Positions 44,778-64,000 of a stretch of 64,000 bases of DNA are shown here, one piece after another. The stretch is from Paragyromitra xinjiangensis (lineage: Eukaryota; Ascomycota; Pezizomycetes; Pezizales; Discinaceae), in assembly GCA_038503065.1 (NCBI GenBank), contig JBCAMK010000004.1, positions 231,001-295,000 on the forward strand, written 5' to 3'. Under the pieces are notes generated by a model. It saw nothing but the letters and a program-made list of their open reading frames with translations, did no database searches and was not told the origin of the DNA. The translations under genes were made by a program, and so were the position numbers. Each line of letters begins with the position of its first letter. Within the stretch, counting starts at the first letter, position 1.

Positions 44778-45492
44778 ATGTCTGCATTTGATCCCTATGA
44801 TCCCTAGATCCACTTACATAGGCTCCGGTGCTTCGACGTCATGGTATAGAGGGGCATCTTTGCTCGGTAGAGAAATGCCCCACCGCTTGGCGGCCGCACG
44901 GTACAGAAAGCCATGTGTGTAGTTGGCTGTGTGAGGGTTCGGTGCACAAGGGTATCAATCCGGGCGAAGATCATGTTTGTACGGGAGAATGTTTTTCCGG
45001 TGGTAAGAGTTTTCCCCAAGACCCCGTTTGCCTTTAGCGTAGTCTGTTTTCTGGGGGGTGTTTCTAACGATTTTTTCTTTCTAGTAAAGCTACCGCACCA
45101 GTACCTAAGGTGGGTGGTGGAACGGGTTCTCAGCAAGGTGGGACTGCAGAGTCAGTCCTTGGGGGGGGGGAATAGACCTGGAGCCGGAGCTGGAAGGTCC
45201 AGAAGCTGGAGGTTCAAGAGGAGGTGCTAGAGGTTCCGTAGGAGGTTCTGTCGGTCCAGCAGGACGTGACGGAAGGGACGGAGTGGACGGAAAGGGCGGG
45301 AAGGATGGGAAGGATGGGGCCCCAGGCAGAGACGGGAGGGATGGCCCGAAAGGTGACCCGGGCCCAAAAGGGGACCCCGGGAAGGACGGAAAGGGTTCAC
45401 ATCATAGTGTGATGTGGTCGACCTACGGGGCGCTTCGTGTGGCGTGTCAGGGAGCTTATGAAGCACTGAATGAACGGCGTCTTTGCTTGTAA
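44778..45492 (+). pseudogene. Broken Cys/His-module collagen-like gene (locus A)
   Basis: The start resembles those at 50533 and 62453 (MSAFDPYDP against MPFFDENDP) but loses frame within about 12 codons and then meets TAG at 44819-44821 where both relatives have Trp. The Cys/His module itself is complete: GHLCSVEKCP, HVCSWLCEGSVH and HVCTGECF. A phase-1 intron (45003-45084) leads to KLPHQYLRWVVERVL. A G10 run (45161-45170) puts the frame out by one; past it, an acidic/Gly linker and about 20 Gly-X-Y triplets (GRDGRDGVDG, GPKGDPGPKGDPGKDG) read cleanly. The end is MWSTYGALRVACQGAYEAL, then stop. At least three lesions, so called a pseudogene. The G10 frameshift could be a sequencing error, but the TAG is not in a homopolymer. 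Confidence 0.8.
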
Positions 45493-45858
45493 AGACGTAT
45501 TCACGTGCATCAGGAAATAAATAAGTTCGTTCTTGAGATTTTCCTCTGCCTTGCTTGTATAGAACCGAACAGATCTTATCTTCTTCTCACTAGTAGAAGT
45601 TGAGTATTCTGATTGCAGCTTAGCGGTTGTATCGTACACATCGAACCTACTTCTTAGTTAAGGTAGCTTCAAATTTTCTAGTGACACTACTCAGGGAAGG
45701 GGTTTTGGATGTTGTACGTAGCCATCTGCTGGGGTACATCAGCAAAAAAAAAGGCACCCAGTACATTTGCAGGAATGTGGCTTTCCTGAAGACCCAGGTG
45801 CCAAAAATAGTTTCCCCATTCGGCTGAATGATAACATACTAAAGTAAAAAACCGCACC

Positions 45859-46002
45859 TAGCACTCGTGGTCTACCATAAGTTCCTGAAAATGTCTTTTA
45901 GTAGCAATAGCTTTTGATTCGCCCCGCAGCAACGCTTCACGGTTTGATTGGTCAATTCATACCCCTGTTTTCAGGTACTTATGGTAGAGCACGAGTGCTC
46001 TA
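45859..46002. mobile_element. MITE, TA target duplication (family 2)
   Basis: Inverted ends of about 35 bp (left TAGCACTCGTGGTCTACCAT; right, read inward, TAGAGCACTCGTGCTCTACC) are separated by about 75 bp. The 144-bp element is bordered by TA. It sits between the locus A pseudogene and the X1 fragment and may mark where the 5' part of X1 was lost. Confidence 0.72.
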
Positions 46003-46145
46003 GTGGGCGCACCGCCACCGCTGCCAGGTGTCAACAGATTTTCCCTGGCACCCGTAGTACTGCATACGCTGGAGACAGACCTGCTTCCGCGCATGCTTAT
46101 CATACAAGGGGGGGTTATGGGATTTAGTAGTCATAATATGCCGAG

Positions 46146-46412
46146 GGTTCGGTAGCAGATTCGGAGGGTTGGGAGGGGCCAGAGTTCAGCGAAAGGTGTG
46201 GTAGTGACTGTGGTCATAGTGAGTGCGATGGCTTCGATGTATGCCAGCACGACGAAGAAATGGGAGGTGATTCCGGTTCGGTTGGAAACGAAGCCATGAT
46301 CGAAGACTCTGGGATCGGAGAGGAGTCGCATACCGATATAGATATGTCGAATATGTCGAAGGACTTGAGATTCCAGGGAATAGTGGAGCCCCCTCTCGCG
46401 GTCGGTGTATAA
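46146..46412 (+). pseudogene. 3' fragment of repeated gene X (copy X1)
   Basis: The plus-strand frame reads DSEGWEGPEF, then CGSDCGHSECDGFDVCQHDE, then GSVGNEAMIEDSGIGEE, and stops at 46410. The same tail is found in copies at about 55.27-55.53 kb and 57.24/59.5 kb. Only the acidic, Cys-containing tail is left; sequence upstream (from the MITE at 46002) shows no match to the body of X2. The downstream neighbour is a collagen-like gene, as for X2. Function unknown. Confidence 0.6.
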
Positions 46413-46536
46413 GTGTCGTTCCCCTCCCCTAGGCAGATGTGGTGCTGTTTCCTTTCATTGTTTTTCTAGGTTTCATTTTATCCCGTTTATCTTTTATTTT
46501 TCTACTACCGATATTTTTCTTACCTTTTCGGGGTTC

Positions 46537-47539
46537 ATGGGTTCCCAGGAACCGCAGGGTGAGAGGGCCGAGAGGGGACCAGCCGGTCCGCAAGGGGGTA
46601 GTGAACCGCGGGGACGGAGAGGTGAGCAGGAACCGACAGGCTTTACGAGGTTGGCGGGTCCGCCTGGACCTGTCGGGCCGACTGGTAAGAGCAGTTAGCT
46701 TCCTTCCTAGGTGTTTAAAAGCTGAATATGTTATTTAGGTCCTCGAGGGGATCGAGATCGAGGAGATGCGGGAGCTATGGGGGATGTTGGACCGTTAGGT
46801 GTAACCGGGCCGGCAGGACCGTGTGGGGAGCAGGGCGTCGCCGGAATACCGGGTCCTACGGGACCGATAGGACCCTCTGGGCCCCAAGGTGTCGCTGGAG
46901 AGCGCGGGGAAAGAGGAGAGCAGGGAATTATTGGGCCGACGGGTGAACGAGGACCAGTGGGCGATGCAGGTATGCCTGGGTCGCAAGGGTTACAGGGGAT
47001 TCCAGGCAAGGACGGGGTAGCGGGGGTAGCGGGGGTGAAAGGGGATCAGGGCCCCGCTGGACCGACAGGTCCTGTAGGTAAGTATATGCCCTTGTTCGGT
47101 GATTCTTGTTTCACGGTGAGCTGATATCTTTTGAGGTCCCAGCGGTCCTAAGGGTGATCGAGGAGACGTATCCGGTCTCTCGAAATCGACACACTCTGTA
47201 TATGGTATGATAACGTGGGCGGATTTGGATGTGCACCCTCTCCAAAGGCTTCTGGAGTTCGATGCTGAGCTCGTAGTTTCCGCCCGTCGCTGGAATGGTT
47301 CTATTTTAGAAGCAGATGTTCGGCGCGAGTTTGCGGAGCTTATGGGAGCGTACAAGATTTTCTTTAGCTGGGAAGGTGGGGTTTATCATACTCGCGCCCA
47401 TAATGTCACGAGAACTTTGACGCAGCGCACTGCAGATCATGTTGCCTATCATTCTTTGTCTAGTTTCAATCGAACCGCAATTTGTTGGGCTTTAACTTTG
47501 GATCTAATGGGACACCGAGGTTTGGAAAACAGGAGGTAG
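46537..47539 (+). CDS. Collagen-like protein, complete frame (locus A2)
   Basis: Exons 46537-46684, 46739-47077 and 47136-47539 join to 296 residues with short introns (54 and 58 nt), both splitting a Gly codon in phase 1. Exon 1 (MGSQEPQGERAERGPAGPQG) is collagen-like, but five triplets have lost Gly (four E or R, one A). Exon 2 encodes about 37 nearly uninterrupted Gly-X-Y triplets, such as GPTGPIGPSGPQGVAGERG. Exon 3 starts with four triplets and continues into a 110-residue C-terminal domain (WADLDVHPLQRLLEFDAELVV..RRW, ending GHRGLENRR) that I do not recognise. No signal peptide is visible. This is the best preserved member of the cluster. Confidence 0.75.
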
Positions 47540-48001
47540 TAGGCTGGGTCTTGGGGGACGGCAAACTATGAGTTTTCCCTTTGGCTGGATCCTTTGGGTC
47601 TTGCTTTTCAAATTTTTATTGTTTATATTTTTAAAAAATCCAAAAATACACGATAAATTAAAGGGTGCAATGAAATATGAGTTTATAAGCAGAAATGTAC
47701 TTACTCCCGGTCCCTCAATGGGGAACAAGTTGACAATCAAGTCAGGTGTCGTAAATCTTATTGTTTTAACTACCCCCGCACGTGTAATAAAGACAGAAGT
47801 TTGGATAGTGGCAGGAGACTTCATCTCTAGTGGCTTCCGCGTCGAGCCATTGTTGCGTTCCCTGTCAATTGACGACTTCAATCTCCATGATATGATATTC
47901 ATTGCAGTGACACTGATTGAATTTCTGTTAAACTCGGGGGGTGACAGGGAACGAGGGTCCCTGATTGGTGGGGCAGCATTTTCAACGTTTCAAATTTGAT
48001 C
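47540..48001. other. 3' flank of A2; open frame of doubtful status
   Basis: A plus-strand frame at 47568-47999 (143 codons) begins with a hydrophobic segment (WILWVLLFKFLLFIFL) and overlaps the segment just after the A2 stop. Equivalent positions after locus D (56.4-56.5 kb) also hold a hydrophobic frame (FFFVNGPFVVTFILLALFKF). It may be a tail exon reached by alternative splicing, or chance. Confidence 0.3.
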
Positions 48002-48213
48002 TACCGTAAAAACTCGGTCATAACGAATTGGTCTGGACTGAGACAGCAGAATATATACACACTCTGACTGGCTGGGAGATAGGGTTCGGGTTGACATCCT
48101 ACTTATATTGGTTGCGATAACCTGAAAGCTGATGGTGTGTACCAATTGGGGGCACTTATTCTACCATGCAGTCTCAGCCCAGGCCAATTCGTTATGACTG
48201 AGTTTTTACGGTA
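48002..48213. mobile_element. MITE, TA target duplication (family 3)
   Basis: Inverted repeats of about 44 bp with four differences start TACCGTAAAAACTCGGTCAT (left) and TACCGTAAAAACTCAGTCAT (right, read inward). TA at both ends; 212 bp, non-coding. Confidence 0.82.
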
Positions 48214-48400
48214 TCACCAACAGGAAAGGCTACCTAGCAGCCGAATTCGCTGGATTCGCCTGTTGCCTGAAGGCGTACCTAGCTGCTCGATTCGCTGACT
48301 TCTACTGTCGCCTCAGGTGCGCCTACATGCTGAATTCGTTGGATTTCCTACTGGTCGGCTGGAGGTTCGCCTTGCCTAGGTGTCAGTGTGGATAGTGATT
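48214..48400. repeat. Short degenerate tandem repeat
   Basis: About three imperfect copies of a unit of roughly 60-65 bp that contains GAATTCGCTGGATTCGCCTG or variants. It starts immediately after the family 3 MITE. It has no open frame of note. Confidence 0.5.
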
Positions 48401-48596
48401 AGGGCATAGGTAGGTGCATATGAATGGAGAAGCCTGTACATAAATATTGTCATGGAGTGACTTGTAGATAGCGAATTATGTACATAGATATTGTCCAATA
48501 GATATAGAGATAGCGAATCAAGCATTAAATTTTACACGTTTTATAACTTTAGTTTTACAGGGGAGATTCATAGGAGGGATTTTGAGTTGAAAAGAG

Positions 48597-48905
48597 GTGC
48601 TATTGGTGATGCTAAATTTGGTGCTTTGGTGTGACAGTTTCGGTGCGTGTCAGCGTGAGGGTGGCTCCAAGACGGGTGCTAGAAGCTCTAGTTATGTTAA
48701 GAAGAGAGCTGACATATGTTTAGGGCCGGCGGGCGAGCGAGGGGAGCGAGGCGATCAAGGTCCCGCTGGACCGGCGGGGGTTCCTGGGCCAGCAGGCTCT
48801 CGGGGGAATAGGGTGTCGCTGAACCGCCAGGTCAGATTGGGCCAACGGGGCTACCAGGACCTCCGGGCGGCGGGGATGCGGGACTTAGGTTGCAATTCCT
48901 GCTAG
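48597..48905 (+). pseudogene. Collagen-like gene fragment (locus E, 5' part)
   Basis: After about 40 codons without a known match, the frame enters collagen repeats: [20 protein letters not shown] and five further triplets. It then loses phase at a G5 run (48802-48806). In the shifted frame a TAG (48809-48811) comes at once, where a Gln would fit, followed by [18 protein letters not shown]. One indel plus one stop point to a pseudogene. The upstream piece GACQREGG resembles the CQRED start of the X3 tail, so an X remnant may precede the collagen. Confidence 0.55.
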
Positions 48906-49208
48906 AAATTTTTGAGAATGAAATTGAGGGTCATTTTTAGGGCCAAAATTGTAGTTATAGCCATATCAATTTATTAAAGCAATAGACAGGAAATTTTGAT
49001 TTTAACATGTCAGTCATAAGTAGTTTATACACATCTACCTCCAAGAATTTAAATTTATTGATCAAAATCTCATTGAGTTACAAGCTGGTTATTTTTTTCT
49101 TGTGGCCTATACAGGCCAGATACAGCGTCGCTACGGACGAAGGAATAGATGCAGGAGGAATGCCACTAAATAAGCTGACACCTCTAACACGGCAGGGACT
49201 CGCTTGCG

Positions 49209-49427
49209 TTGGATCACCTTCTTCTGGAATCGATGGTGTTGCCCAGTAAGAAAGTACTTCAATCTTTCGTCTGCTTGAGTATGATCTTCGGGCTTTGTAC
49301 TTCACTGGCTGTGCACGAAAACCACGGGGTTTTTCAGGCCCTGGCACTCGCTGTTTGCCTGGGCGTAGGTGGCTTGGGATTTCGCAATCGGGCATTGATA
49401 GTGACATTGTACGGTGTTTTGTTGTAA
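49209..49427 (+). CDS. Doubtful short hydrophobic frame
   Basis: 72 codons with two hydrophobic segments (FVCLSMIFGLCTSLAV and ALALAVCLGVGGLG). It lies between the two parts of locus E and could be a C-terminal membrane exon of that gene, comparable to the membrane segment ending locus B. No start or splice sites can be defined. Low confidence. Confidence 0.25.
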   Translation: MDHLLLESMVLPSKKVLQSFVCLSMIFGLCTSLAVHENHGVFQALALAVCLGVGGLGFRNRALIVTLYGVLL

Positions 49428-49503
49428 TTAATGGATAAGTCTCTTCCCACGATGTTTAACTGAAGTTACCTACGTGGTTGCAACTTGGATGTGGCATCGA
49501 AAC

Positions 49504-49664
49504 TACAGTGAAAACCGGTCATATGGCGGATCCGGTGTGTGGCGGACAGGGGTGCTTTTAGCAAAGGGACACAATATTCCCCCAGCGGATATTGCGTCCC
49601 TCAACCAAAAAAATTACCCTGTCCGCCACACACCGGATCCGCCATATGACCGGTTTTCACTGTA
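49504..49664. mobile_element. MITE with perfect 48-bp inverted repeats
   Basis: The left end (49504-49551) and right end (49617-49664) are identical as inverted repeats over 48 bp, starting TACAGTGAAAACCGGTCATA. TA at the borders; total 161 bp. Perfect ends suggest recent activity. It lies inside locus E. Confidence 0.88.
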
Positions 49665-49739
49665 CCCACTCAGAGAACCTCCTCCATATGCTGTCTCAGC
49701 CCGGCCCTATTCCCTACACCCGAGATAATACGGTATTAC

Positions 49740-50342
49740 GCGTACATAATTTGTGCGCACAAGCGAGCGAGGGCAGACTTTGAAGGTCCGACAGTCTCGC
49801 ATCATGAGTATCAAACATACTTGTTTTTGTCGAAGAATGTGGCCAGTCGCAATACGTCGGAAGCGATTAGGTTTCATTACAACAGCACGAATGATCCAGA
49901 TGTACAGACGCATAGAGATTCGTCACATTGTATTCTTTGTTTTCCTTGTACGGAGGGAGTGCCGCCAGCAATTATTACAGGACGAAATGCAACTGCGGCG
50001 AATAGGACTAGTAGTTCGGTTTATGTCAGGGAGACTACACTAACTTTCACGATGGAGACACATGTCCATGCGCGGATTCGTATTTTGCTCGCGAGGGGTA
50101 TAAGTCATCGTGCAGAATTTGCGCGCGTAAGTTTCTGGTTGACAGTGATATAATGTTTGGGGTTTATCTGGCGTGACGTAGTATAGATAGGTCTGAAGGA
50201 GATTACGGAACGGTGGTTGTGTCGAGGACGGATGTTGGTAATTCGGGCCTCACGGGTATAGTGGAATCGCCTTCTGGTACTCCGTTTGATGTGATCGTCA
50301 ATAATACTAGACTCCCGGACAGTCGTAGGATAACTGGGTGAG
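49740..50342 (+). pseudogene. Beta-rich C-terminal region, possibly of locus E
   Basis: One frame reads from about 49770 to 50150: FEGPTVSHHEYQTYLFL, then FHYNSTNDPDVQTHRDSSH, SSSVYVRETTLTFTMETHVH. Near 50130 a GTAAGT donor occurs, and after about 50190 a different frame continues with DYGTVVVSRTDVGNSGLTGI and TPFDVIVNNTRLPDSRRITG. Alternating polar and hydrophobic residues suggest a beta-sandwich, as in trimeric C-terminal domains of other collagen-like proteins. The intron phase does not fit cleanly, so either an indel is present or I have the splice sites wrong. Confidence 0.4.
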
Positions 50343-50532
50343 GCATATAGTCGTTAGGACATCGAGGAATGACTTTTTATTATTTTTTTCTTTTTTGGTG
50401 TTTTATTTGGCGTAAGCAGATTGGTGTTTCGACAGGTATTTAGAGTTGGGTCATTTCCCCTCGTTTTGATTTTTTTCCTTTCTTTCTTTGTCACGTCCTT
50501 GAAATTTTACTTTTATTTGATCAGTCCTTGTC

Positions 50533-52046
50533 ATGCCTCCTCCCGAAACAACTGCGCCAGCAACATGGCCAGCCAAGAGAAGGCCTCATGGTGTAGTTGG
50601 GCATTTGTGTTTGCCTGCTAGGTGTCCGGATCAGTGGGTGCCACATGGGGGGTCGGGGCATGTCTGTAGTTGGGTGTGTGAAAATTCTGTTCATGGGGGA
50701 TTGTCTCCGCCGGTTGGCCACGTGTGTGACAATTCATGTTTTCCAGGAGGTAAGAGTTTTTGTTTAGTTTTTAGGGATAGTAAAGTCTTATTGTAGTATT
50801 GAGAGCGAGAAGCTGATTTTTATAGCACAGCTACCTCGGGAATATTGCCGTTGGGTCCTCCAGCAGGCGGGTCTTCCGGAGAAACGACTGGATCGTCTGG
50901 TGGAGGAAATGTGCCTCCGCCCGCTACCCATGCTTGGGGAGGAGGAAGTGGTAGAAGAGGAGGAAGTGAGAGTGGAGGGTGGGGGTAGTAATGTAGGAGT
51001 CGACAGTGGAAGTAAGGGGTCTGGAAACAGCTCAGGAAACGTCGGGCCAGTCGGACCAGCAGGTCCCGCAGGTCCCACAAGGCCAGTTGGGCCAGTTGGG
51101 CCAGTTGAACCAGCTGGAACAGATGGTGTAGATGGTAAGGAGGGTGGTGTAGGATCGACGGGGCCCGTGGGGCCGGCTGGGTAAGTAGTATGTTATTTTT
51201 TTTCTTGATGTTAGTCGATGGATGAGACTGATATGGGAGATTTTAGGGAGCGTGGGTCGGACGGGAGGGACGGCGTTGACGGGAAGGATGGAACACCTGG
51301 GTTAGTTTTAAACTTTTCCTAGTGGTGCAGTTTTGCTGTTGTTAAAGATTGAGGTTAACAGTTTTTATTTCGTAACGACAAATAGCTCGCTGGTCAAGTG
51401 TGATGTCACGACAGAAACTTTTGAAGCCCTTAAGAGTGAGGTTTCGCAGTTAAGGGGTTTGATAAAACGGCTGCTTGCGGATCCTTCTGTTCCCGGCCCT
51501 CAGGGTCCTGTTGGGCCGAGGGGAGAAGCAGGTGAGAAGGGTGAGATTGGGGCTCAGGGACCTGTAGGGCCTCGCGGTGTTGCTGGGATGAGAGGAGAGG
51601 TTGGGCCGGAAGGGCCTGCTGGTACTACGGGTCGGCCCGGCGAGCGTGGGGAGACGGGGCCTAAGGGCCCTCTAGGAGAATGTGGGGAGCGTGAGGAGAT
51701 GAAGCCTGAGGGCCCCTCCTAGAGAACATGGACCTCATGGGTAGTAGTTTTTGGTAGGGGTATTTTTAATTATTTGAAAAGAAATGTATTGATTTTTTTT
51801 TTTTTATGATTTAAAGGAAGAATTAGACTGCCAAGCCGGGTCGATCTTGCGAAGCTAGAAAGGTGTGGGGTGATAGGTGCTCGTAAATCGATTATGTTAT
51901 TTTACACTATCACAAGGTACATAGGCCGATTCTGGAGGGTGCTCTTGTTATTTGCACTTATCAGTTCGCTGGTCATCCTCGCTGTTATCATGCGGATGGA
52001 GAACCGCTATAGTGTGGAGAGAATGGGATGGAAGAAATATATCTAG
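50533..52046 (+). CDS. Cys/His-module collagen-like protein with C-terminal membrane segment (locus B)
   Basis: Exon 1 (50533-50749, 217 nt, ATG start) encodes the Cys/His module: GHLCLPARCPDQWVPH, HVCSWVCENSVH, HVCDNSCFPGG. A phase-1 intron (50750-50825) leads to exon 2 (50826-51180) with QLPREYCRWVLQQAGLPEKR, a Glu-rich helix, a Gly/Ser linker and collagen triplets. Exon 3 (51247-51300) is 54 nt, six triplets. Exon 4 (from 51362 or 51386) has a heptad helix (ETFEALKSEVSQLRGLIKRL), then about 20 triplets ending in GEREEMKPE, where Gly is lost, and a C4 run (51713-51716) followed by TAG. Removing the shift, the triplets run on to a donor near 51740. A last exon (from about 51819) encodes FWRVLLLFALISSLVILAVI, a membrane helix, and ends at 52046. 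One indel makes the status (gene or recent pseudogene) uncertain. Confidence 0.68.
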
Positions 52047-52266
52047 GCGTTTTCAGTGCGCATTTCCGCCGCGGTTGTACTCATGTCGGTGGCATGAGTA
52101 GTATTTTTGGCTATAGATCTTTTGGAAATATTTTAAAAATGTTTTGTGTGGGGGATTTCCACCCCTTATCACGTTGCATGATTCCTTCGCTTCCTTTCTC
52201 GGATCCTGAGAGGAAGGACCAACACCCGCAGTGTCTTTAGGACTTTCACCTATCGTAATACCTCAC

Positions 52267-52308
52267 GCCACTAGCAACACATATCTGCAGCTAAATGTTG
52301 CTAGTGGC
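52267..52308. other. Perfect 13-bp stem-loop
   Basis: GCCACTAGCAACA (52267-52279) and its exact reverse complement (52296-52308) are separated by 16 bases. It lies downstream of locus B and could be an RNA hairpin or the remains of a tiny inverted-repeat element. Confidence 0.6.
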
Positions 52309-52499
52309 ATGTATATCTCGTAGCGTTAATTCTTGTTCTTGTTGTGGATGGTAATATTTTCAAGTAATATATTAGTCATTGTTGTAAATTCTAGTTATAA
52401 GGGTCGATTTTCCGTTGCGACGCTGGTTAGGCGTTGTTTTCTTATTTTTCATTGCTTTTAGTCGCTTTGGCATATCGACAAAGTGGTGAAGTTCGTTAC

Positions 52500-53640
52500 T
52501 ATGTTTTGTGATATTCAACCTTTTTAGAAGAGACTTGTGACCGAGTTATCGCCGTTATCATTGTTCAGGTTACCATGCGTGAACAAGGAGATTTATGGTT
52601 AGAAGAAGCGCATAGTGAAGAGGGAGTGGAATTTGAGAGGTTTCTAAAACGTTGGATCCAGACTCCATCAGCTTTAGAGAAGTGATGCGTACTTACGATG
52701 CGATAATTTTGGAATCGGCCGTATTTCGATAGAAGTTATTATGAGGAGTCAGATATGGACGTATTCGTGTCTGGCGGAGGTTCTTTTGGGCCAGAACTGA
52801 GTCGGGGGGAAGAACAATCTCACGGAGAGTGGTATCGCGGCTTAGTTGCTTGGAAAGATTGTTGCTAGAAAGCTGACAGGAATATGTGTTTACAGAAGAT
52901 TCTTGTCATTGCTATTCATTTACTTACGCAACAGGGATACGAAGGTACCAATGGCCTAGCATGGGCGAGTCAGACGGTGGAAGAATTAGTATCCTCCCTT
53001 TTGGTAAGGTAGATGGGAGTAATGCAGATACCAGGGTTTATGGACAAGAAGTCCATGGTGTCTTTAGTTTTGTTAGAGGCGGCCAGAAGATACAAGTTGT
53101 TGCCAGTCGAAACTTGGTTTTGTGTTCTGTTGTTTGATTTTATTCGACGGTGGTAATGAACTTTTTAACGCACAGTGAGGTGTTTTCTCTTTTTCCAAAC
53201 TATATGTTCTGCAGGAGACAGGGTGTTAAAAATGTTCCCTCGGATGAACGGACTGACGCAGAATGGGCTAAGTATGAGGATAAGAGGTTTTTATTGACTA
53301 GGAGGCCCGAATTGCGCGGGCGATCGGCGGAACAGGATGTAAGTTCAATACCTTGTTCCTTAATTCGTTGTGGTGTTTAGATTGGTCGTTAATTTGTTTG
53401 ATCAGGAGAACTTTCAATTGCCAACAGCGGACGGTTTTCGGCATCGTTTGACAGATTGAAGAACCCGGTACTTTGTCCACAGTGATTGTACATCTTTGCA
53501 AGCTACCGTTGATTATGATTCTTGTTTTAAACTTCGGGTGAAGTATGGTAGGAAGTTTCACGAGTAGGGTAAATGTTTTTAGGGGTACGAGCAAGTTAAG
53601 ATAGATGATAAACTTGCGAAGAGAATTAGATTAGATATGT
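52500..53640 (+). other. Unassigned coding-like fragments
   Basis: Several short plus-strand frames look coding but cannot be joined: MREQGDLWLEEAHSEEGVEF (from 52575), KILVIAIHLLTQQGYEGTNG (about 52899), RVYGQEVHGVFSFVRGGQKI (about 53030) and VPSDERTDAEWAKYEDKRFL (about 53240). GTAAG-type donors occur at 52971 and elsewhere. This may be one multi-exon gene or a pseudogene. No family is recognised. Confidence 0.3.
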
Positions 53641-53736
53641 ATTAAGTTTCTCTAACGTTAAATTTTGGTTACAAGTTGAATTGGAATCGAGTGATTTCCA
53701 ATGTTTTGAATTTTGAATCACGTGTGATAGCGATAG

Positions 53737-54034
53737 TAGTAGTAGTAGTAGTAGTATAGTAGTAATTCATTTACATATCCAACTCTATGGGTTATGACGA
53801 TAACCTTAACAAGGCAAACAATACAAAACAAAACAATACAAAAACAAAAAAACAAATAAAACAAATAAAACACCAAAACCAACAAAACATAAATCCCATA
53901 TCCAATTCTTCCTATATTTCTTATCTTTCCTCGAGCTCGTTTCTCTGTAAGCAAAAACAATAACCACAATCCCTTTTAACAAAATGAAACTTAAACAATT
54001 TATCTTTCAATTTCCCCGTACCCCCATTCCAATT
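53737..54034 (-). mobile_element. Short retroposon, minus orientation, 12-bp target duplication
   Basis: A 298-bp segment is flanked by TGATAGCGATAG (53725-53736 and 54035-54046). On the minus strand it ends in a (CTA)n tail preceded by a 45-bp block (TTATCGTCATAACCCATAGA onward). The same block and tail close the 2.2-kb element at 57285-59484. A tailed insertion with a target duplication fits target-primed reverse transcription. It is probably a 5'-truncated or short non-autonomous member. Confidence 0.72.
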
Positions 54035-54370: not shown

Positions 54371-55532
54371 ATGAGCGATCACACGATGACTCGTGTTTCG
54401 GCTACAACACCTTCCGAGGCACCGTTCGCGTTACTAGAGCTGCAGCAACCTTCCTCGAGCCCTCCAAGGGAAACAGTCCTCGCGCCGCGGATGCTACCAA
54501 AGCGAACGGTGCACGGGATATGGTACAGGACGTTCGTGAGGGTATGTCCAGGTTGGATCAAAGGTTTGCTTTGCTGGAGACCACGGTCCACGGTCTGAAC
54601 CGGAATGTAGACACTGTAGTGGGATTGATTTGTTTTGGGTGGAGGGGAGGGCTGCAGGGCTTTTTATTTGCCAGTAAGCGGAACAGCGTGTGGTTATATA
54701 GTTGGTGTGGATCGTCTTTTGTCTAGTAGCCATTCATTGGAACAATCAGCATTTTGAATTTTACGTTGAGCAAGTTGTTTTTATATCCAGTCAATCTTCA
54801 TTTTCTTCTTCGTCGTCGGTGAAGTGTCCGAGTGGGTGGGAGAGGTTTCCGCGTTATCCAAAGTTTATTGATCGAAAGCCTCCGCTTCCGTGGGATGAGA
54901 GCAAGCCGATGTTGGAACCTGTGGACGAAAAGAATCAGTGGCATTGAGAGTATACTCCAGAGTACCAGAAGTATTTGGTGGAGTGTGAAGCTTTTAGCGC
55001 TTGGTTCGAGAAGGCTTCCAATGAAGGCACGGAGTGGGTGGATCTTCAAGCGCAGTATCCCTTCAAACCGCCTCGAGCCACTAATCCTGTAGGTTCTTTT
55101 TATTCGACACGTTACGGTTCGCAGTACACGAATGAATACAAGGAGTATCTGTTTTTGGTGTACAAGCAATCCGGCGTTAAGTTGTCTTGCCCGGGATTGA
55201 AGAGGAGGTACCGAAGGTACCATGAGGAGTTGTGTAAGGAAATGTACGACTGTTCAGCGTCGGAGCAGGATTTTTCTACGGAAAGTGACTCGGAGGGGTG
55301 GGGGGGTCGGAGTACAGCCTGCATCACGGCAGTGATTGTGGTCACTCTGAATGTGACGTGTCAGCGCGATGATCGATATGACACGGATATCGGTAGTCCT
55401 GGTTCGGTTGATAACGGGGCTATGATGGAGGGTTCGGGTTCGGGTCCGGGTGACGATGTTGCAGATCCTACCACGTTGGACGTGAGCCATATGTTGAAAG
55501 AGTCGGAATATCCACATGCTCCTCCTTCTTAG
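54371..55532 (+). pseudogene. Gene X, longest copy (X2), with in-frame stop and frame shifts
   Basis: Two frames overlap at 54371-54640; one carries a helix (MVQDVREGMSRLDQRFALLE). From about 54805 one frame runs CPSGWERFPRYPKFIDRKPP, through DEKNQWH, then TGA (54945-54947), and continues in the same frame: EYTPEYQKYLVECEAFSAWF, FYSTRYGSQYTNEYKEYLFL, LKRRYRRYHEELCKEMYD, to an acidic tail and stop at 55532. In the tail, the part matching GSDCGHSECD of X1 is read in another frame, starting at a G7 run near 55300 and returning near 55350, as expected of two compensating indels. Function unknown; the repeated Tyr/Trp-rich segments are soluble-looking. A collagen-like gene follows 170 bp downstream. 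Confidence 0.6.
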
Positions 55533-55698
55533 GAACGGTTATAAAAGCGTGGTTGATTCCTATTTTTTCCTTTGCTTGTTATATCCACGTTTTTTCGGTT
55601 GGAGGATTTTCGTTTGCATTTCAGGTTTTGTTTGTTTTGTTTGATTTTTTTGGAGTTTTGTTTGTCGTTTCTAGTTTTGTGTTTTCTTCGTTTTCCTT

Positions 55699-56337
55699 AT
55701 GAGTCAGGGGCCCCCGGGACTACAGGGGGAGAGGGGGGGGAGGGGTCTGACTGGTCCTCAGGGTGGACCTGGAGCACAGGGGGAGAGGGGGGGAGGGGTC
55801 CGACGGGTTTTACTGGGTTGACTGGCCCACCAGGGCCATCGGGGCCGGTAGGTAAGTATCCTTCCGAAGGCTTTATTGATCCCTTCTGACTTTGAGTTAG
55901 GTTCCGCGGGCGAGCGAGGTGATCGAGGTGATGTGGGGCCTACAGGACCGCAGGGAGAGCGGGGTGACGTCGGGCCTCGAGGTTTGGATGCGAACCCCGC
56001 GGATGCGAGTGAGATATCGCGCATATCTTCGGGTCTAGCGAATAACCTTTCGGAAACGAAATTGTTGCAGGATAGAGTCGTTCTTCTGGAGCGGCAGCTC
56101 GTGCAGTTTTCTTCGGGTTCGACGGATGTGTCGGCTGAGTTGGTGACCCTTCGGCAGACCGTGGATAGGTATCGGGCCCTTACACTCCAGGTTAATTATT
56201 TGGCGGATGACTTGGCTCGCATCGAGCGTGATTGGCAGCCTGCCAATCAGTATGGCCACGAGGGAGCGAGGCAGATAGGGATTCTGAGCACTGTGGCACA
56301 GAACCTTCGGGGTTCGTTTTCAGCTATCTGGGAGTAG
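55699..56337 (+). pseudogene. Collagen-like gene with a G-run frameshift (locus D)
   Basis: ATG at 55699 starts MSQGPPGLQGERGGRGLTGP, similar to the start of A2. Two near-identical segments follow, each with GERGG encoded by a G run: the first has G8 (55733-55740) and keeps frame, the second has G7 (55787-55793) and loses it. Past this point the other frame continues GPTGFTGLTGPPGPSGPVG. A 49-nt phase-1 intron (55852-55900) leads to GSAGERGDRGDVGPTGPQGE, then a long helical region of about 120 residues with heptads (LLQDRVVLLERQLVQ, LRQTVDRYRALTLQVNYLAD) and a stop at 56335. A one-base deletion in a homopolymer may be real or a sequencing error. Confidence 0.72.
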
Positions 56338-56359
56338 GATTTGATTTCTTGGGTTCGGA

Positions 56360-56584
56360 GAAACAGGAGGTAATAGGGCCGGGTCCTGGGGACGGCAGGT
56401 TTTTTTCCGGAGGAAGTCTATTTTTTGATGTTTTGAATGGGTTTTTTTTCGTTAATGGCCCATTTGTGGTCACGTTCATCTTGCTTGCGTTGTTTAAATT
56501 TTTGCGGCGTTGAGGATGTTAACAGCGTGGAGTAACGAGAAGAGAAAACAGGAGGTGGAAAGGCCGGGTCTTAGGGGACGGCAA
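56360..56584 (+). repeat. Two copies of a conserved 3'-end motif
   Basis: A segment of about 38 bp around AAACAGGAGGT..CCGGGTC.TGGGGACGGCA occurs at 56360-56398 and 56544-56584, and also across the A2 stop codon at 47527-47565. It marks the ends of collagen-like units, so it may be a 3' UTR signal or simply the trace of duplication. The second copy here implies that one more 3' end was duplicated and lost its gene body. Confidence 0.6.
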
Positions 56585-56766
56585 GAGAGTTTTCACTGGT
56601 TTATTGCGTCTCCCTTGATTTTAGTTCATAGTTGTTTTTAAATATCCATATACGAGTAATCGATCTATGATATGTTTTTACGCTTTTAAGTAAGTGAGAT
56701 TTGCTCGTGTACAGGGTTAAATAAACAAACAAACAAACAAACAAACAAACGGATGCGTGAGCGCAC

Positions 56767-56972
56767 AGGGACAGATGGTCTAAGTGTATGGCTGTCTGAC
56801 TATCCTTTCGTTGCAAAGCGGAGGGTTATGGATTCAAATCCCATGTCTCCCACCCCCGGTATACCCAACCTCGAACTACTTCCAATGCCCCAATGGGACC
56901 TGCTGCCTATAGTGCGCCGCCATAGCCCTAGGGCTCGTTGCGAATAGATGCATTATTATTATTATCATTATT
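56767..56972 (+). mobile_element. tRNA-derived SINE with 14-bp target duplication
   Basis: A 206-bp insertion is flanked by ATGCGTGAGCGCAC (56753-56766 and 56973-56986). The head resembles a tRNA gene, with a pol III A box TGGTCTAAGTG (56776-56786) and a B box GGATTCAAATCC (56830-56841), and 5'/3' acceptor-like halves that still partly pair. A tRNA-unrelated body follows, and the tail is ATT-rich. All SINE hallmarks are present. A (AAAC)n microsatellite lies just upstream. Confidence 0.85.
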
Positions 56973-57284
56973 ATGCGTGAGCGCACGAAATTTTAAAAGG
57001 TGAGAATTAAAAAGAAATATACAAAAGAAAGTCGTTGAAAAACATGAAAGGTTAATTTCGAGTGATAATATGAGACTGAATCGAAACATGCGAGTGATAT
57101 TACATGATTAAAGGGAAAAATATAGATGACAAGGAGATATAAATGAAAACATACCCCGGCGTTCCTCAAAATTGGATGAGGTAAGATGTGTGAGAAAAGG
57201 GTTCGTGCTAGAAATACATTGATGTTAGGAGGCCAAAGTTGGAGCCTTCATCACAGTGAGTGTGCAAGGTTTGAGATGTGTCAG

Positions 57285-59484
57285 GAACCAACCAATCAAA
57301 GGTCGCCACAGATTTCCCTCAACTTCTGAGGTTTTTGTGATATCAGGTTTCCACCAATCAGGGCGTACCTACCCTGCTTTCATTAGGCTTCATTACCATG
57401 AACAGCAATTTCTACAGCAACAAGTCAAGCTATGGTAAAGGAAAGACAACCATGCTAGCCTTTAAGCTCATGGCCTTCAGAAATGAATACCACCGCCATA
57501 TCGATGCACTATTGTGGGAAGTTAAGAGATTGAGAGGGGAAGTAGGAGTGTTGGCAAGAAGAAATTACAGAGCAAAGAGAGAGATAAAAGAGCTGGTGGA
57601 AAGAGTGATGAGGCAAGCACCACCACCAATTCTAGCAAGACCGGAGAAGGAAGAGAGCAGGGAAGAAAGAGTGATTGAGGAAGAGGAAAGGAAGGCGGAG
57701 AAGGGAGATGTAGAGATGAAGGAAGCAGAGCAAGAGGAGAACACCCCCAGGAGAGAACGGAGACAGAGGAGAAGGAATCAAAAGGATTGAAAGCAGTGAA
57801 AGCGTTGGAGAAATTGGTGGAGATGAAGAAGAGGGAAAGGGAGAAGAATAAGAAGAAGAGAGAGGACCCACCTAACGCCATACCGAGTTTGGCAAAACTC
57901 CCTGAGCAGGTCGCAGAAGTAATCCCTGTCTGCGAAACGAAGCAAACGGCAAAGAAATGGCGATTTGTGGAAACTAATAGCAAAATATTGGTGGGACCGG
58001 GTGAGAGGCATGTTGATAGGGCGGACCGGAAGGCAGCCAACAAAGAGAGATATACAGGAGGTTAAAGGTTACATGGACGGAATATGGTGGTAACGCCATA
58101 TTATCCGCGCAGGAATTAAATCTCGCCCCACTGGGGTCACGATGTAACTCTCCTGAAAACTATCCGACCTTAGTATATTTATATACGCACCTAATGGGCC
58201 GCTAGCCCAAACCCCCTGAACGAATGGAGCGGCCGAAAGACTGCCATTCTAGTGCGTGCGGTTACACCTATTGCAGGCCCGTGACAAGCGCCGTTGGGTT
58301 GTGTCAGCACTTAATGACTAGGTAAAGGACAGGACACCTGCGGAGGGAGGTTGACGAGCTCTTAGAGCGGGACACTTACAAAGGTAGTGCACCCGACTGA
58401 GTCTCATATACCGAACCTTGGTTAGTGATAAGGGTTAAAACCTTTTGAGCGAGACCGTGACGTTTAGATAGCGACGCCTTGACTACGAGGACGCTTTCTA
58501 TTTTAGCGAAGCTCACTATGTGGGTGGGGCTAGGCGTTGGCTGTATATGTAGAAACTTATAAAGTAGTCTAACGGCCCGAGAGAATGGACGCGGCGGTCG
58601 GTCACGAACACCCGCTTCGGCGTGGAGTGCCCCCTAGTAAGGGGTTTTGAGTGGCTTAAGGTACAAACACCAGAGGCAGCGCAGCGAGGGTGGGTGGATA
58701 TGTGAACGATGGCAACTCGCCAAAGAACTCGCGGAAAAAGACGCGCTTAGCACGCGGACCCCGAGTACACTGGTAGTCCTACACTCCATTTCACTTGCTT
58801 ATTGAGGATTGCTTTACCCAGCTTCTCTTCCAAAAGTTGCAGCCTAGCCGGTTAACCGTGGGTTATGTTTAGTTTAGGCTGGCATTTCCTGGCGGCAACA
58901 GCCCGGTTGAGAGAGATGTTCGACAGTGTTTCCTTTATCGACGTATAAACTAGATGAGGATAGCTGCGATACGGCTGTGTGCGCCTTACAACCCGTAAAA
59001 GCACAATAGACGTCCGCATGGGGGGTAATACCATGAGGGGCAATGTTCGTAGTCTAGATTAGGGCGGTTTTCTTCGTCTTACTAGGTTGCGGGCATTGCC
59101 CTTGTCTACAATTACCAAAAGGGCAATGACCCTTAGGAACGGGCTCTCAAAGGTGGATAGCGTTGAATGAAGGAATAAACGGGAATAAGATGTTACTGTT
59201 GCTACCAGAAAGGGAGAGAGGAAAAGAGGGGTATATTTGTCGGGATAGGAAGTATGAGGCGATTGGTTTTCAGTTTGGAGAATTTTATGCGAGAGTTGAG
59301 GATTGTAGGGTGGAGTGGGATAGTAGTGAATGGGAGCCGCATATGGAAGGAGAATGAGAGCGGGAAATTGTTGTTTTGTGTTTTGTGTTTTGTGTTTTGT
59401 TTTGTGTTTTGTTTTTGGTTGTTCTTATCGTCATAACCCATAGGGTTGGATACGTAAATGAATTACTACTACTACTACTACTAC
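57285..59484 (+). mobile_element. 2.2-kb retroposon with 14-bp target duplication
   Basis: The element is bounded by TTGAGATGTGTCAG at 57271-57284 and 59485-59498 and ends in a (TAC/ACT)n tail. Its last about 60 bases match the tail end of the inverted element at 53737-54034. It contains one protein-like frame near its 5' end (57398-58065) and a middle part without a clear reverse transcriptase. The structure fits a deleted or non-autonomous non-LTR element. The insertion splits gene X3, so the boundaries are fixed independently by the interrupted frame. Confidence 0.8.
57398..58065 (+). CDS. Coiled-coil, Glu/Lys-rich protein of the retroposon
   Basis: Two overlapping frames: 57398-57790 (130 codons; no ATG start) and 57787-58065, joined by a one-base frame change in a purine-rich stretch near 57770. 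The first has a heptad helix (EYHRHIDALLWEVKRLRGEV) and a Glu-rich tail, the second a basic helix (LEKLVEMKKREREKNKKKRE) and a last segment with IPVCETKQTAKKWRF. Length and composition resemble ORF1/Gag-type RNA-binding proteins of retroelements, but no zinc knuckle is visible, so this is only an inference from position. Confidence 0.4.
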
Positions 59485-59749
59485 TTGAGATGTGTCAGCG
59501 TGAGGACGAAGACAGGGAATGCGGCAGTGAAGGGGATATCGGAAACGATGGTATGATCGAAGATTCTGGTCATGGCGAAGATGTGGCGGACGTTTCGTTA
59601 GATATGACGGAAATGATGAAGGAATTGACTTCTGCGACCGACCTGCCCTACACCTCTTCCCCGGGAGTGGTATATAAGCAAAAAGCCGGGTCTGCGTCCA
59701 GTCGCGCCTAGAGCAGTAGGCGCACTAGGCACACTGGGCTCGGATTTTT

Positions 59750-59910
59750 TTAGGCACTGCGTTAGACGCATCGTCTAGTATGGCGTATGTTTGGGCGGCA
59801 TTGGGCGCATTAGACGTACGATGTCACGCTGCTTGTCACGCTGCTTTATATGGAACTAATAGTCTATTCTGCTCTATGTACATTTACGACGCAATTCCAC
59901 CCATTGTCTT
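59750..59910 (+). pseudogene. Possible collagen-gene C-terminal fragment
   Basis: The frame at 59780 reads YVWAALGALDVRCHAACHAAL, which has the same spacing of Trp, Gly-Ala-Leu, Val, Cys and Ala-Leu as the end of locus A (MWSTYGALRVACQGAYEAL). No collagen triplets remain upstream. A weak match, noted because it lies downstream of X3, where a collagen gene would be expected. Confidence 0.3.
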
Positions 59911-59929
59911 GCTTCCGCTGTTGATCCAA

Positions 59930-60215
59930 CTGCCTCCGAATCGACTGCTGGATAGACTCCGAATTGGCTGTTCCTGAGCCTCTGAATTGACCCCGAATTG
60001 ACTCCAAATCGACTGTTTCTAAGCCTCCGAATCCTGCTGAATTGACTGCTGAATAGGCTCCAAATCCACTGCTGAATAGACTCCGAATTGACTCCTGAAT
60101 TGACTCCGGATCGGCTGTTTCTAAACCTCTGAATTGACTGCTGAATTGACTGCTAAATTGACTCCGAATTGACTTCGAATCGGCTGTTTCTGGGCCTCCG
60201 ACTCGGAATCGACTG
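59930..60215. repeat. Degenerate minisatellite, 12-bp-type unit
   Basis: Many imperfect copies of words such as CTGAATTGACTC and CCGAATCGACTG follow each other, with the phrase CGGCTGTTTCTAAGCCTC recurring three to four times as a longer-period unit. Confidence 0.7.
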
Positions 60216-60469
60216 CTGAATATACTCTATAGCACAGTATGTTAGCACGGTTGACTGACGTGTAAGAGGTGGGGATTGGAAAGGTGAGGCGAGCGGGAGG
60301 TGGAGAGGTGGGAGGCGAGCAGGAGGTGGGGTGTGTGGTTGATATAAGGGAATTGCTGGCGGAAGGCGCGTGTGAGGTCATAATGAGCCTAGGAGGGTCG
60401 GGTAACCGAGGGTTAGGGTTTCGACTTGGCTGAATTTGCGACCAGGAGACAGTATATGGGCGCATGGGG

Positions 60470-60780
60470 GCGTGTGAGCGTATGTGGGCGCATGGGCGTA
60501 TGGACGTGGTAGGGTGAGCAATAGAGCAAGCGTATGGGCGTACTAGACGTAGATCCATGCTGAGGCGAGCAATAGAGCGATCATATGGACGTACTGGGCG
60601 TACGGACGTACATACTAGGGCGTGCGATAGAGCAGGCGTATGAGCGTACTAGGCGTATAAACTTACTGGGGCGTGCAATAGAGCAGGCGTAAGAGCGTAC
60701 TAGGCGTACGAACGTGCTGGGGCGAGCAATAGAGCCAACGTATGGGCGTACTAGACGTACGGAGGCAGCTGGACGCAGGT
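60470..60780. repeat. Minisatellite with 51-bp unit
   Basis: At least four units of about 51-54 bp start with GAGCAATAGAGC or GTGCAATAGAGC and contain GGGCGTACTAGACGTAC. Because the unit is a multiple of three, the minus strand gives an apparent 17-residue repeat (SIARPSTFVRLVRSYAC); I regard that as a by-product. Confidence 0.75.
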
Positions 60781-60970
60781 AGGCGTGCTGAGCTTCGGAA
60801 GCTCGCCCAGGCGCTTGCCCAGACGCCCAGGCGCGCAACCCTTTTTGCTGATGACTGATTTCTAATGATTTGAAGAAGTTAGCGAGCGCTGCGTCGGGGT
60901 TGATTGTTTTGATCTTTGCCCAACATCAGCAAGAACAAAAAATTGGCTATTTGAGATTGGGATTATGTTT

Positions 60971-61106
60971 TTACCTCTGTGACCTATTTGGCCCTCTGTG
61001 ACCTCTGCAGAGGAAAATATCAAAATTTCCTCGGAAACTACCACAGAGAAATGTTGACCTCTGCAGAGGCTACAGAGGTGATATAGAGGTCAAATAGGCC
61101 ACAGAG
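60971..61106. repeat. Imperfect foldback sequence
   Basis: CTCTGTGACCTATTTGG..GACCTCTGCAGAGG (60971-61013) is mirrored by CCTCTGCAGAGG..AGGTCAAATAGGCCACAGAG (61058-61106). The arms of about 45 bp could form a hairpin with a short loop. No target duplication was recognised. Confidence 0.6.
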
Positions 61107-61329
61107 CCCAAATATCCCACAGAGGAATGTCGTTTGTTTTTGCTGATGAACTAGGGTGCGACTGTAGGAGTGACCTTATATTGACGTTTTTGGGATAGGT
61201 ATGAAGACTTTGAGTACGAGGTGTTAGTTGGATGGCTTTTGTATTGTATATTTTGATATTATAAAAATATTATTTATTATTTCATCAGTACGAAGAATTA
61301 AACTTTCAAATTTGGTTACGTTCTTTATT

Positions 61330-62067
61330 CTACGAACCAATGGGGCGGTCAATTTAAAACAATTCCATAATTTTAAGGACACGATAATCTAGAATGAGTG
61401 ATAGTTCCAAGAGCTTGGTTTTACCTATGTCAGTTTCACCTATGACCTAGAGGGCTCTTTTTCGTCCTTTGTGTCTGTTTTCGATGTAAAGCTCTTCGAA
61501 TTCCTTGATGCTGGCGAATCTTTTCCAGGGTTTGGGGTTTATGACGAAACATGGCTCTTCTTCAAAATCTGCGCTCGGGAAGACTTTATTCATGCCATTT
61601 TTTATTTTATCTCTTTTGAGTAGCCATGTTTTGGGGTCGACTCTTTTGGTTTTGTCGAGCATGGCTTTTTGGTTGAGGAGTCGACAACGTCGTGCCAGAA
61701 TGTTCTTAAATGTTGTCCGACTTTCTCAGCGCATAGATCATTGAACGCAAAGTCAGCTTCCTCAAAGGTGCTACCTCTAGTTATTCCCTTTCCAGGTTTG
61801 GGGGGCTCGTTGCACTTGTTGATGTAGTGCCAACAAGTGTCGAGCTATGTTAGTGTGGAACGTAGTGCCGTCGATTTTAATGTCGTACTTTCGCTGGGCG
61901 GTTTTGCCCTTGATGCAACAATGCTTTTTGGTGTGAGGATTGATTCCCAGGTCGACCAGTACGTGGAAGTGAGGGACTGGGTGTAGTTCTCGGCCGTTTT
62001 CGTCCACTTTAGGCTCGCGGTATTCTCTTGTAGCGAACCAACGAGTAGGTGGGTGGGTCCATTTCAT
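61330..62067 (-). pseudogene. Endogenous, decayed Rep gene of a circular ssDNA (genomovirus/geminivirus-type) virus
   Basis: On the minus strand, 62067-61777 carries the HUH endonuclease metal motif in PHFHVLVDLG and a following block with FHTNIA; 61662-61447 carries the linker leading to the helicase; and after a TAG at the end of that frame a Walker A motif (GETDIGKT) lies at about 61410. The order matches Rep proteins of CRESS-DNA viruses: endonuclease, linker, SF3 helicase. It is broken by at least one frame change between about 61780 and 61660, by the TAG before Walker A, and by truncation soon after it; the N-terminal rolling-circle motif I is also missing. The family includes fungal genomoviruses and plant geminiviruses; the remnant does not say which. 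It is a fossil with no coding capacity. Confidence 0.7.
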
Positions 62068-62452
62068 ATATCTAGTCGTGAATCTGTTGCAGTTATCCGG
62101 GATGGATTGATGAGTACAATTAATTATGGAGAGGTGTATGCTCGCCGATATACTTGTGGGGAGTGTCGAGTCTTTGTTTGGTTTTATTGGTTTTTTTTCT
62201 TTTCTTGTGGTTGTTTTTTTTTTGGCTTTTGTTTTCTGACGAAGATTTTTGTGACGCGTCGAGAAGGTGGGGTGGCGGAGGGTTGTGATTTGCTTACTTG
62301 CTTTTTTTGGATTATAAAGTGGGTGGTTTCGCCCAGTTCTGGTTGTCGTGTTGACTGTTCTCCGTTTTTGTTTGCTTGTCGTTATTTCATCGTCGCAACT
62401 ATTCGATCGACGACGATTATATTATTGGATTTATCGATAGCTATAGATGTAG

Positions 62453-64000
62453 ATGCCTTTCTTTGATGAGAATGATCCCTTTACGTGGCCGGCGAGATTC
62501 AGACCGCATAGGGTGGTGGGTCATTTGTGCTGGCCCGCTCGTTGCCCGGATGAGTATAGTCCTCATAGCTCTCCGACACACGTTTGTAGCTACGTTTGTG
62601 AGGAATCTGTTCATAAGGGCGAGCCTCCTCCGGATAGACATGTTTGCTCTTCGGATTGTTTTCCAGGGGGTAAGTCTTTTTCGTACTCTTTTTGCTTATT
62701 CAATTCTTGTGAGATCGATAATTCTAATGCTAGATGGTTAGATAAGCTACCGGTAGAGGTTCTGAGGTGGATGGTGGAAAGGGTTCTAGCACATCTAAAC
62801 CTTCCAATGCAGCGGGTGGATCAGGTGTTGGAGGCGGTTCAGGCGATTCCGTTTCCGGCGGGGTTGGGGCTGAGGGAGAAGGATCAGGAACTGGAACCGG
62901 AACCAGACCAGATGGAGGTGACAGGGGAGGGGGAACTGTCGGCACTGGAGATAAGAGCCAGCAAGGTGAGCGGGGCGAGCGGGGAGTCTGGTAAGTTTTC
63001 TTGCGCCGGGGTAGTTTGTTGGTTGTTTTGTTTATCTGACGTTTGTAGGGCCACAGGGTGTTGCGGGTGTACCTGGCCGGGACGGGAAGAATGGGAAGGA
63101 TGGTAAAGAGAGTTCGAAGGGGTCGGTCTAGCTATGTTTAACTGATATGAATTCCATGATACTTCTCTCATTTTTTTCTTGTTGAAATGTTCTTGTCCGG
63201 GATCGGGCGGAAGTTTACTTTTGAGGATAGTAAAGATGGTGTCTCGGCCACTCCAGCTGTTAGTCTCGAGTCTTTTCAGAAGCTGGAGGGTGACATTGAG
63301 TCTCTCCGCTCAATGATTGAGAAGCTTTTGGCAATGCCTCAGGCTCTGGGTCCGAGAGGTGAACGAGGTGAAACAGGCTTGACGGGCTCGAAGGGGGATG
63401 CTAGAGCGAAATGGTGGGTGCTATTTACCCCAATTAAATTTTTTTTGTAAAGTTGGTTAATGGAATTTGGTTGCAGTAAATGAGGTGTTCCTGGTGTTCC
63501 TGGTGTTCCTGGTCGTGATGGCGTGGATGGTAAGAGCGGTATAAATGGGAGGAATGGTAGGGACGGTGTGAACGGGAAGGACGGTGTGGATGGGAGGGAT
63601 GGTAGACCTGGTGTGTAGGGAGAAAGGGGTGAGAAGGGGGATAAAGGGCCTGTCGTGAATGAGTCTAGTCTGATGAAGCGAGTCGAAGAGTAGGAGGCGA
63701 AGGTTAAAGCACTGGAGGCTAGGTAGTTTTGAGATCCGTTCAGGCGATTGAATTTTTTCTGATTTGTGCTTGTTGTCTACGTAGATCAGTATCGACCGCA
63801 GCAGAGGTTTCGTCCTTGGGGGTGCGATTGCTTGCCTCCGAGAAGGAGGCGGAAAGGTACAAGAGGTTGTGGCTCGAAGACAGGAGTACTGTGTCGGTTC
63901 TTTCGAGTGGGTTGAGCAGGGCCAGATCCAGTATAAGGGCCTTGAATGCATTGTTCATGGAGGCGTGGGCATACTGGTTACCTCTGCGTGTGGGGGGGGG
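62453..64000 (+). pseudogene. Cys/His-module collagen-like gene, cut by the window end (locus C)
   Basis: Exon 1 (62453-62669, ATG, 217 nt, same length as in locus B) encodes FTWPARFRPHRVVGHLCWPA, HVCSYVCEESVH and HVCSSDCFPGG. The intron 62670-62741 is set by homology (acceptor GGTTAG), giving DKLPVEVLRWMVERVLAHLN and an acidic linker. A phase-1 donor at 62990/62991 leads to exon 3 (63049 on): GPQGVAGVPGRDGKNGKDG. A helical exon (SLESFQKLEGDIESLRSMIE) matches locus B, then more triplets (GPRGERGETGLTG; GVPGVPGVPGRDGVDG..). Two in-frame TAGs (63616-63618, 63691-63693) interrupt the later part, both where Gln would be natural. After a GTAG donor near 63723 another helix (AEVSSLGVRLLASEKEAE) runs on beyond the window. 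The 5' half is intact and the 3' half damaged. Confidence 0.68.

Follow-up and report, generated by a model that had tools for sequence, protein, structure and literature searches.

Proteins carrying the collagen triple helix repeat (PF01391) occur in bacteria, phages, viruses and some fungi, and trimeric stalks are usually built from Gly-X-Y tracts placed next to coiled coils. In the fungus Metarhizium, MCL1 consists of a cysteine-rich part followed by collagen; it is secreted and anchored to the wall, is encoded by a single gene and has a signal peptide as one of its defining features. According to the accessible parts of the respective papers, this collagen-like protein is tied to immune evasion (PMC7776561), Colletotrichum lentis has an MCL1-like candidate effector (PMC4546252), and a collagen-like family has been noted by homology in Morchella conica (PMC8329594). 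No description of a fungal cluster of collagen-like genes was found in a literature search of titles and abstract openings, in which subscription journals were mostly absent. Here we describe such a cluster in a 64-kb window (the whole stretch of DNA analysed, C4:231001-295000 of the 48.2-Mb, 22-contig genome of Paragyromitra xinjiangensis; GC content about 46-47%), which carries six Gly-X-Y units at 44.8-63.7 kb (A, B, C, E, F and G) and a seventh (U15) at 15-16 kb. The sequence is repeated, falls into two gene families (type 1, members A, E and G; type 2, members B, C and F) with partner frames in a recurrent order, and contains old type 1 copies with a conserved head. With a probability of roughly 0.6, we read it as an old, partly decayed tandem array of fungal genes that are spliced and encode trimeric collagen-like rods.

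Compared with MCL1, the locus is likewise fungal and has a cysteine-rich part before collagen, but U15, B and E show no signal peptide, and the cysteine-rich part here is a short H/C module of three repeats, the head. It shares its Pfam family with the collagen-like proteins of M. conica, perhaps a related fungus, the accessible description of which mentions no cluster, gene structure or head. As in other PF01391 proteins, the Gly-X-Y parts of E, B and U15 score over the family cut-off and adjoin coiled-coil-like parts; however, the genes here are apparently spliced and clustered, and their head and C-terminal domains have no Pfam match. The layout of stalk plus trimeriser is also that of the trimeric fibres of phages and polinton-like viruses, as far as the accessible part of the source goes (PMC12220804), although the viral scans made yielded no relative. 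Finally, unlike in vertebrate-type fibrillar collagen, there is no long uninterrupted helix or C-propeptide, the longest run being 39 triplets (in B).

A six-frame scan of the window returned 15 Gly-X-Y runs of at least six triplets, whereas none occurred in any of 10 sequences simulated with the dinucleotide transition frequencies of the window. The 15 include at least one shadow frame, which belongs to E (51040-51111, minus strand). On the plus strand the runs lie at 45244-45396, 46762-47085, 48723-48874, 51035-51692, 55707-55989 and 63048-63609, and a separate one is found at 15652-16016 on the minus strand, so that all seven units named in a preliminary description of this DNA were recovered, including the one at 15 kb, which reads open as had been proposed. 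In the 40 kb that precede the window there was a single run of five or more triplets, which was glycine-rich and not collagen-like. Genome-wide, PF01391 matched 22 stretches (17 over the cut-off) in a search that scored only the best candidates and to which N stretches are invisible; seven of the 22 are in the window and nine at one place on contig C5. The seven loci inspected outside the window comprised a repetitive C5 gene (the nine stretches), a GPP-repeat C5 gene and otherwise low-complexity or non-collagen sequence. Outside the window, the collagen-like frame L033 (C5:2291952-2292044) carries a run of GPP triplets, after which comes a helical-looking domain about 130 residues long.

The fragments are best read as exons of spliced fungal genes, an interpretation that the sequence supports well. 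GT..AG joins give open proteins of 320 residues for E (four exons), 296 for B (three exons) and 270 for U15 (two exons), with 41, 47 and 20 triplets and 24%, 16% and 32% charged residues, respectively. The Gly-X-Y register is preserved across the U15 intron, both B introns and the second E intron. The introns of B, E and F, like the first two introns of G, measure 49-85 nt, that of U15 (185 nt) and the less certain third one of G (154 nt) being longer, and E and G have one 54-nt exon each. A CTNAY box begins 13-19 nt upstream of the next exon in seven of the ten modelled introns. On these models B, E and U15 come out intact, whereas A, C and G are broken and F is interrupted by a single frame break within a run of G, which agrees with the mixture of intact and broken members described before. 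Since the three frame breaks in A exon 2, F exon 1 and the partner frame P1 (see below) all sit at runs of 7-10 G, at 45161-45170, 55733-55793 and 55300-55306, respectively, assembly error may lie behind them.

The type 1 genes are characterized by a 56-residue N-terminal head made of three H-x4/8-H-x-C-x3/4-C repeats (50581-50748, plus strand, in E), and an alignment of A, E and G shows six Cys and six His conserved without exception in all three copies. The intact gene E (50533-51722, plus strand; exons 50533-50749, 50826-51180, 51247-51300 and 51386-51722) encodes the H/C-rich head, a helical-looking linker, collagen, a coiled-coil-like spacer and again collagen, and matches PF01391 with E 1.5e-17 (63.5 bits; cut-off 27.2). 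After it, an open stretch with a strongly hydrophobic segment (51817-52046; 19-residue average 2.69) is a possible candidate for an alternative C-terminal membrane exon of this gene. Gene A (44778-45490, plus strand) is broken: its start is followed by a TAG after nine residues and a frame change, the head is open at 44834-45001, and a break at a 10-G run precedes 17 Gly-X-Y triplets. Gene G (62453-64000, plus strand) runs to the window end, with open first exons at 62453-62669, 62742-62990, 63049-63102 and probably 63257-63413, and with TAG stops at 63616 and 63691 in the collagen and coiled-coil-like exon that comes next; the genome-wide PF01391 search counted one TAG within its stretch. None of the three heads matched a Pfam family (E up to 10), the heads of E and G, each used as a single-sequence query, found only the A, E and G places in the genome as read, and a version of the head alignment in which the row for A was in a wrong frame had no sequence match among solved structures (E up to 1). 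Judged from its residues, the head could hold three metal sites or disulphides and is probably stabilised by zinc or disulphide bonds.

The preliminary description had proposed a rapid turnover of copies, which the comparison of the type 1 genes does not support. Exon 1 of E and G shares 61% of its residues, with proportions of synonymous (pS) and nonsynonymous (pN) differences of 0.77 and 0.29 and with 21, 20 and 45 differences at codon positions 1, 2 and 3. For A against E and G, pS was 0.77 and 0.86, pN was 0.34 and head identity was 50-55%, and the third codon position was the most divergent in all three exon 1 or head comparisons. A head kept in this way, with synonymous sites near saturation, argues against rapid turnover and indicates that it stayed under constraint after an old duplication. 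It does not argue against a fast evolution of the middle parts.

In the type 2 genes collagen begins with the very first residues and there is no head. Gene B (46537-47539, plus strand; exons 46537-46684, 46739-47077 and 47136-47539) is intact, with interruptions among the triplets of exon 1, a 123-residue C-terminal domain that matched only itself in a genome search, and a PF01391 match of E 6.7e-21 (74.3 bits; cut-off 27.2). C (48709-48880, plus strand) is what is left of the second exon of a type 2 gene, with its frame broken, and is 71% identical in DNA to the start of F exon 2 over 70 nt. F (55699-56337, plus strand; exons 55699-55851 and 55901-56337) has its one frame break in exon 1 and a coiled-coil-like C-terminal part; its second exon alone reached 24.4 bits with PF01391, below the cut-off of 27.2. 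The coiled coils announced in the preliminary description are visible by eye as coiled-coil-like stretches, but the one profile match to such a family, TolA_bind_tri in F, is weak (E 9e-4, 19.7 bits) and below its cut-off of 30.1. A remnant resembling a tRNA-derived short interspersed nuclear element, judged by eye and ending in ATT repeats, lies after F at 56790-56980.

Upstream of B and F lie partner frames that resemble each other. P2 (46137-46412, plus strand) is a partner-frame tail ending 125 nt before B, P1 (54948-55532, plus strand) ends 167 nt before F and had no Pfam family (E up to 0.1), and P3 (59484-59708, plus strand) is a lone partner tail that is followed by minisatellites and not by a type 2 gene. 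The part resembling P2 lies in a frame other than that of P1, around a 7-G run. When alignment scores were compared with the maximum of 500 shuffles, all four comparisons exceeded every shuffle: P1-P2, the weakest, scored 71 (maximum 60), P2-P3 96 (50), the small frame P1b against P2 75 (44), and P1-P3 100 (65), the last with a contribution from a Leu-rich stretch. The order type 1, partner, type 2 is seen twice, as A-P2-B and as E-P1-F, and for this reason the array appears to consist of repeated copies of a single module.

A 37-bp element (47527-47563) was found at the 3' end of B, and two more copies (56361-56397 and 56547-56583) follow F, all on the plus strand. The pattern has three copies in the genome as read, all of them inside the cluster, and the reversed pattern used as control gave none. 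Folding scores gave no support for RNA structure in the element (z-scores -1.58, 0.11 and -0.39), and a split copy suspected by eye after U15 was not found at gaps of up to 30, the gap at that place being longer. The 150-nt leaders of the cluster genes tested were T-rich in five of five cases (43-59% T; 95th percentile, 41%), which suggests that these genes have promoter features in common; the leader of U15 is not T-rich (26% T).

U15 (15049-16046, minus strand; exons 16046-15971 and 15785-15049) is intact and has, besides its triplets, a coiled-coil-like stretch and a C-terminal domain of about 150 residues; its PF01391 match has E 2.1e-9 (37.5 bits; cut-off 27.2). A search with its residues 70-270 against 5.8 billion proteins gave a single relative, P0001, which is 76% identical over 249 residues in a pairwise comparison and 71% in the search table. 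Its C-terminal domain had no sequence match among solved structures (E up to 1), and E, B and U15 matched no Pfam family other than PF01391. The variability of the C-terminal domains, noted in the preliminary description, was borne out inasmuch as five C-terminal pieces, taken from U15, B, F, G and one of the collagen genes on C5, showed no significant similarity in any of 10 pairs, in tests that are of low power (best E 0.063 by BLASTP and 0.029 by single-sequence hhalign).

As the preliminary description had it, no N-terminal signal peptide was evident in U15, B and E, the three genes covered by a hydropathy test in which no 19-residue stretch beginning within the first 24 residues averaged above 0.14. 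As to a GPI or wall anchor at the other end of the protein, C-terminal stretches of U15 (0.85) and B (0.77) are weakly hydrophobic, and the strongly hydrophobic segment after E lies in what is only a possible extra exon. Since U15, B and E lack an N-terminal hydrophobic stretch, an intracellular site or unconventional export, as a spacer or tether, appears most likely and is preferred to classical secretion. We believe that the array would have been built by repeated duplication of a module composed of a type 1 gene, a partner frame and a type 2 gene, and that birth-and-death evolution would have left some copies intact and others decayed. Each intact protein would consist of three chains zipped together by the coiled coil; the Gly-X-Y part would form the stalk, and the end domain would be displayed in three copies. 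For type 1 this domain would be the Cys/His-rich head, and for type 2 and U15 the C-terminal domain, which differs between members. Whether within the cell or exported unconventionally, such a protein would act as a spacer or tether.

Several observations weigh against reading the locus as an array of spliced genes for collagen-like rods. The splice sites were picked by eye, partly for keeping the frame and the Gly-X-Y register, so the register is not an independent test of splicing, and three of the ten modelled introns have no CTNAY box near the acceptor. P0001 starts with MLIII-GAPG, which corresponds to the frame directly before exon 2 of U15 as modelled; because of this match a one-exon U15 is favoured at that point, and it is possible that the gene has one exon with its start a few codons before 15785. 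Among the same 5.8 billion proteins no relatives were found for E residues 1-130 (E up to 0.001) or for B residues 172-296 (E up to 1). At least three of the six cluster members are broken, and several Gly are substituted in exon 1 of B. Outside exon 1, E and G are more loosely related: exon 2 is 39% identical (nonsynonymous rate dN 0.66, synonymous rate dS 2.33, ratio 0.28), and the coiled-coil-like spacer, compared over 28 codons, is 36% identical and has no surplus of third-position differences (19, 10 and 18). For exon 1 itself, synonymous sites are so near saturation that there is no dS and hence no dN/dS.

The surroundings of the cluster only partly fit the accessory region that the preliminary description had assumed. 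The left 44 kb of the window have ordinary families in four of nine frames (a biotin-synthase-type domain pair, a chitin-binding domain and two DUF3433), out of a Pfam set of ten frames, as well as a tRNA-Leu; inverted repeats are abundant in the last 20 kb. The cluster reaches the window end, the following 22.5 kb are N, and a eukaryotic 18S rRNA gene starts beyond them, about 23 kb past the right window end. Five short inverted repeats between the collagen genes (44318-44618, 45860-45999, 48002-48213, 49504-49664 and 52264-52311) are perhaps miniature inverted-repeat transposable elements. Another one of about 120 nt (84%), spanning 53744-59485 and partly of simple sequence, encloses 5.7 kb with P1 and F, and P3 starts at its right arm. 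GC skew is positive at 44001-64000 (0.174, also outside the listed exons) and -0.016 in the first 44 kb. A 167-residue reading frame directly before E (49650-50350) had no match of weight in Pfam, PHROGs or viral_contigs. On the minus strand, at 61357-62130, there is a decayed relic resembling a geminivirus Rep and spread over several frames; one piece of it, which contains what we take to be an HxH-like motif, matched only itself in the genome. Repeat-induced point mutation (RIP) as a cause of decay received no clear support, with TpA/ApT of 0.92 in the cluster as against 0.86 elsewhere in the window, a RIP substrate index of 1.05 as against 1.16, and a composite index that was negative in most 2-kb windows and 0.20 in one (58001).

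The explanation that best survives alongside the preferred one is a dead or dying local duplication, in which the collagen genes would be relics and the frames of B and E would be intact by chance. The clear damage in A, C and G, the Gly missing from exon 1 of B, the crowding of the region by inverted repeats and minisatellites and the wide divergence of E and G outside exon 1 are all what it would lead one to expect. However, near-saturated synonymous sites with heads kept even in the broken A and G speak for long past constraint, E is open across four exons and U15 has a relative at 76% identity, and we regard this explanation as unlikely. The idea that these are secreted cell-coat proteins like MCL1 of Metarhizium, acting at the surface against other organisms, has a fungal precedent with a cysteine-rich part plus collagen, but U15, B and E have no hydrophobic segment at the N-terminus and the protein-search matches include no named fungal protein, which makes it decidedly improbable.

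Captured fibre genes of an integrated virus would have a similar layout (PMC12220804), collagen and coiled-coil fibres being common in such viruses, and the Rep-like relic (61.4-62.1 kb; weak Gemini_AL1_M match at 61450-61725, E 0.013, below cut-off) lies nearby. Against this, the genes are best read with fungal-type introns, none of eight pieces matched PHROGs, the Rep-like piece had no match in a phage collection, and viral_contigs gave nothing for two collagen-gene queries (P0001 and the head alignment with its one wrong-frame row) or for two neighbour pieces (the 49.7-50.15 kb frame and the Rep-like piece), in scans that did not cover the type 2 genes or the partner frames. Since, in addition, no viral hallmark besides the Rep piece was seen among 24 Pfam-searched proteins or pieces (the 52.3-53.7 kb frames lying outside this set), a viral origin is very improbable.

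Returning to the array of spliced fungal genes for collagen-like rods, a more far-reaching version of it, which we put forward as a rather doubtful proposal, is that these are lineage-specific fungal collagen rods devoid of a signal peptide and equipped with a new three-repeat H/C (HHCC) metal-binding head. They would be encoded in cassette-like modules in which C-terminal display domains have been exchanged between copies, leader, exon 1, partner and the 37-bp 3' element being alike. If a multi-copy family with a conserved novel head and no visible secretion signal is truly present, it would suggest that collagen rods work inside the fungal cell, and if the C-terminal ends have really been exchanged, the array would provide a new eukaryotic example of modular display proteins.

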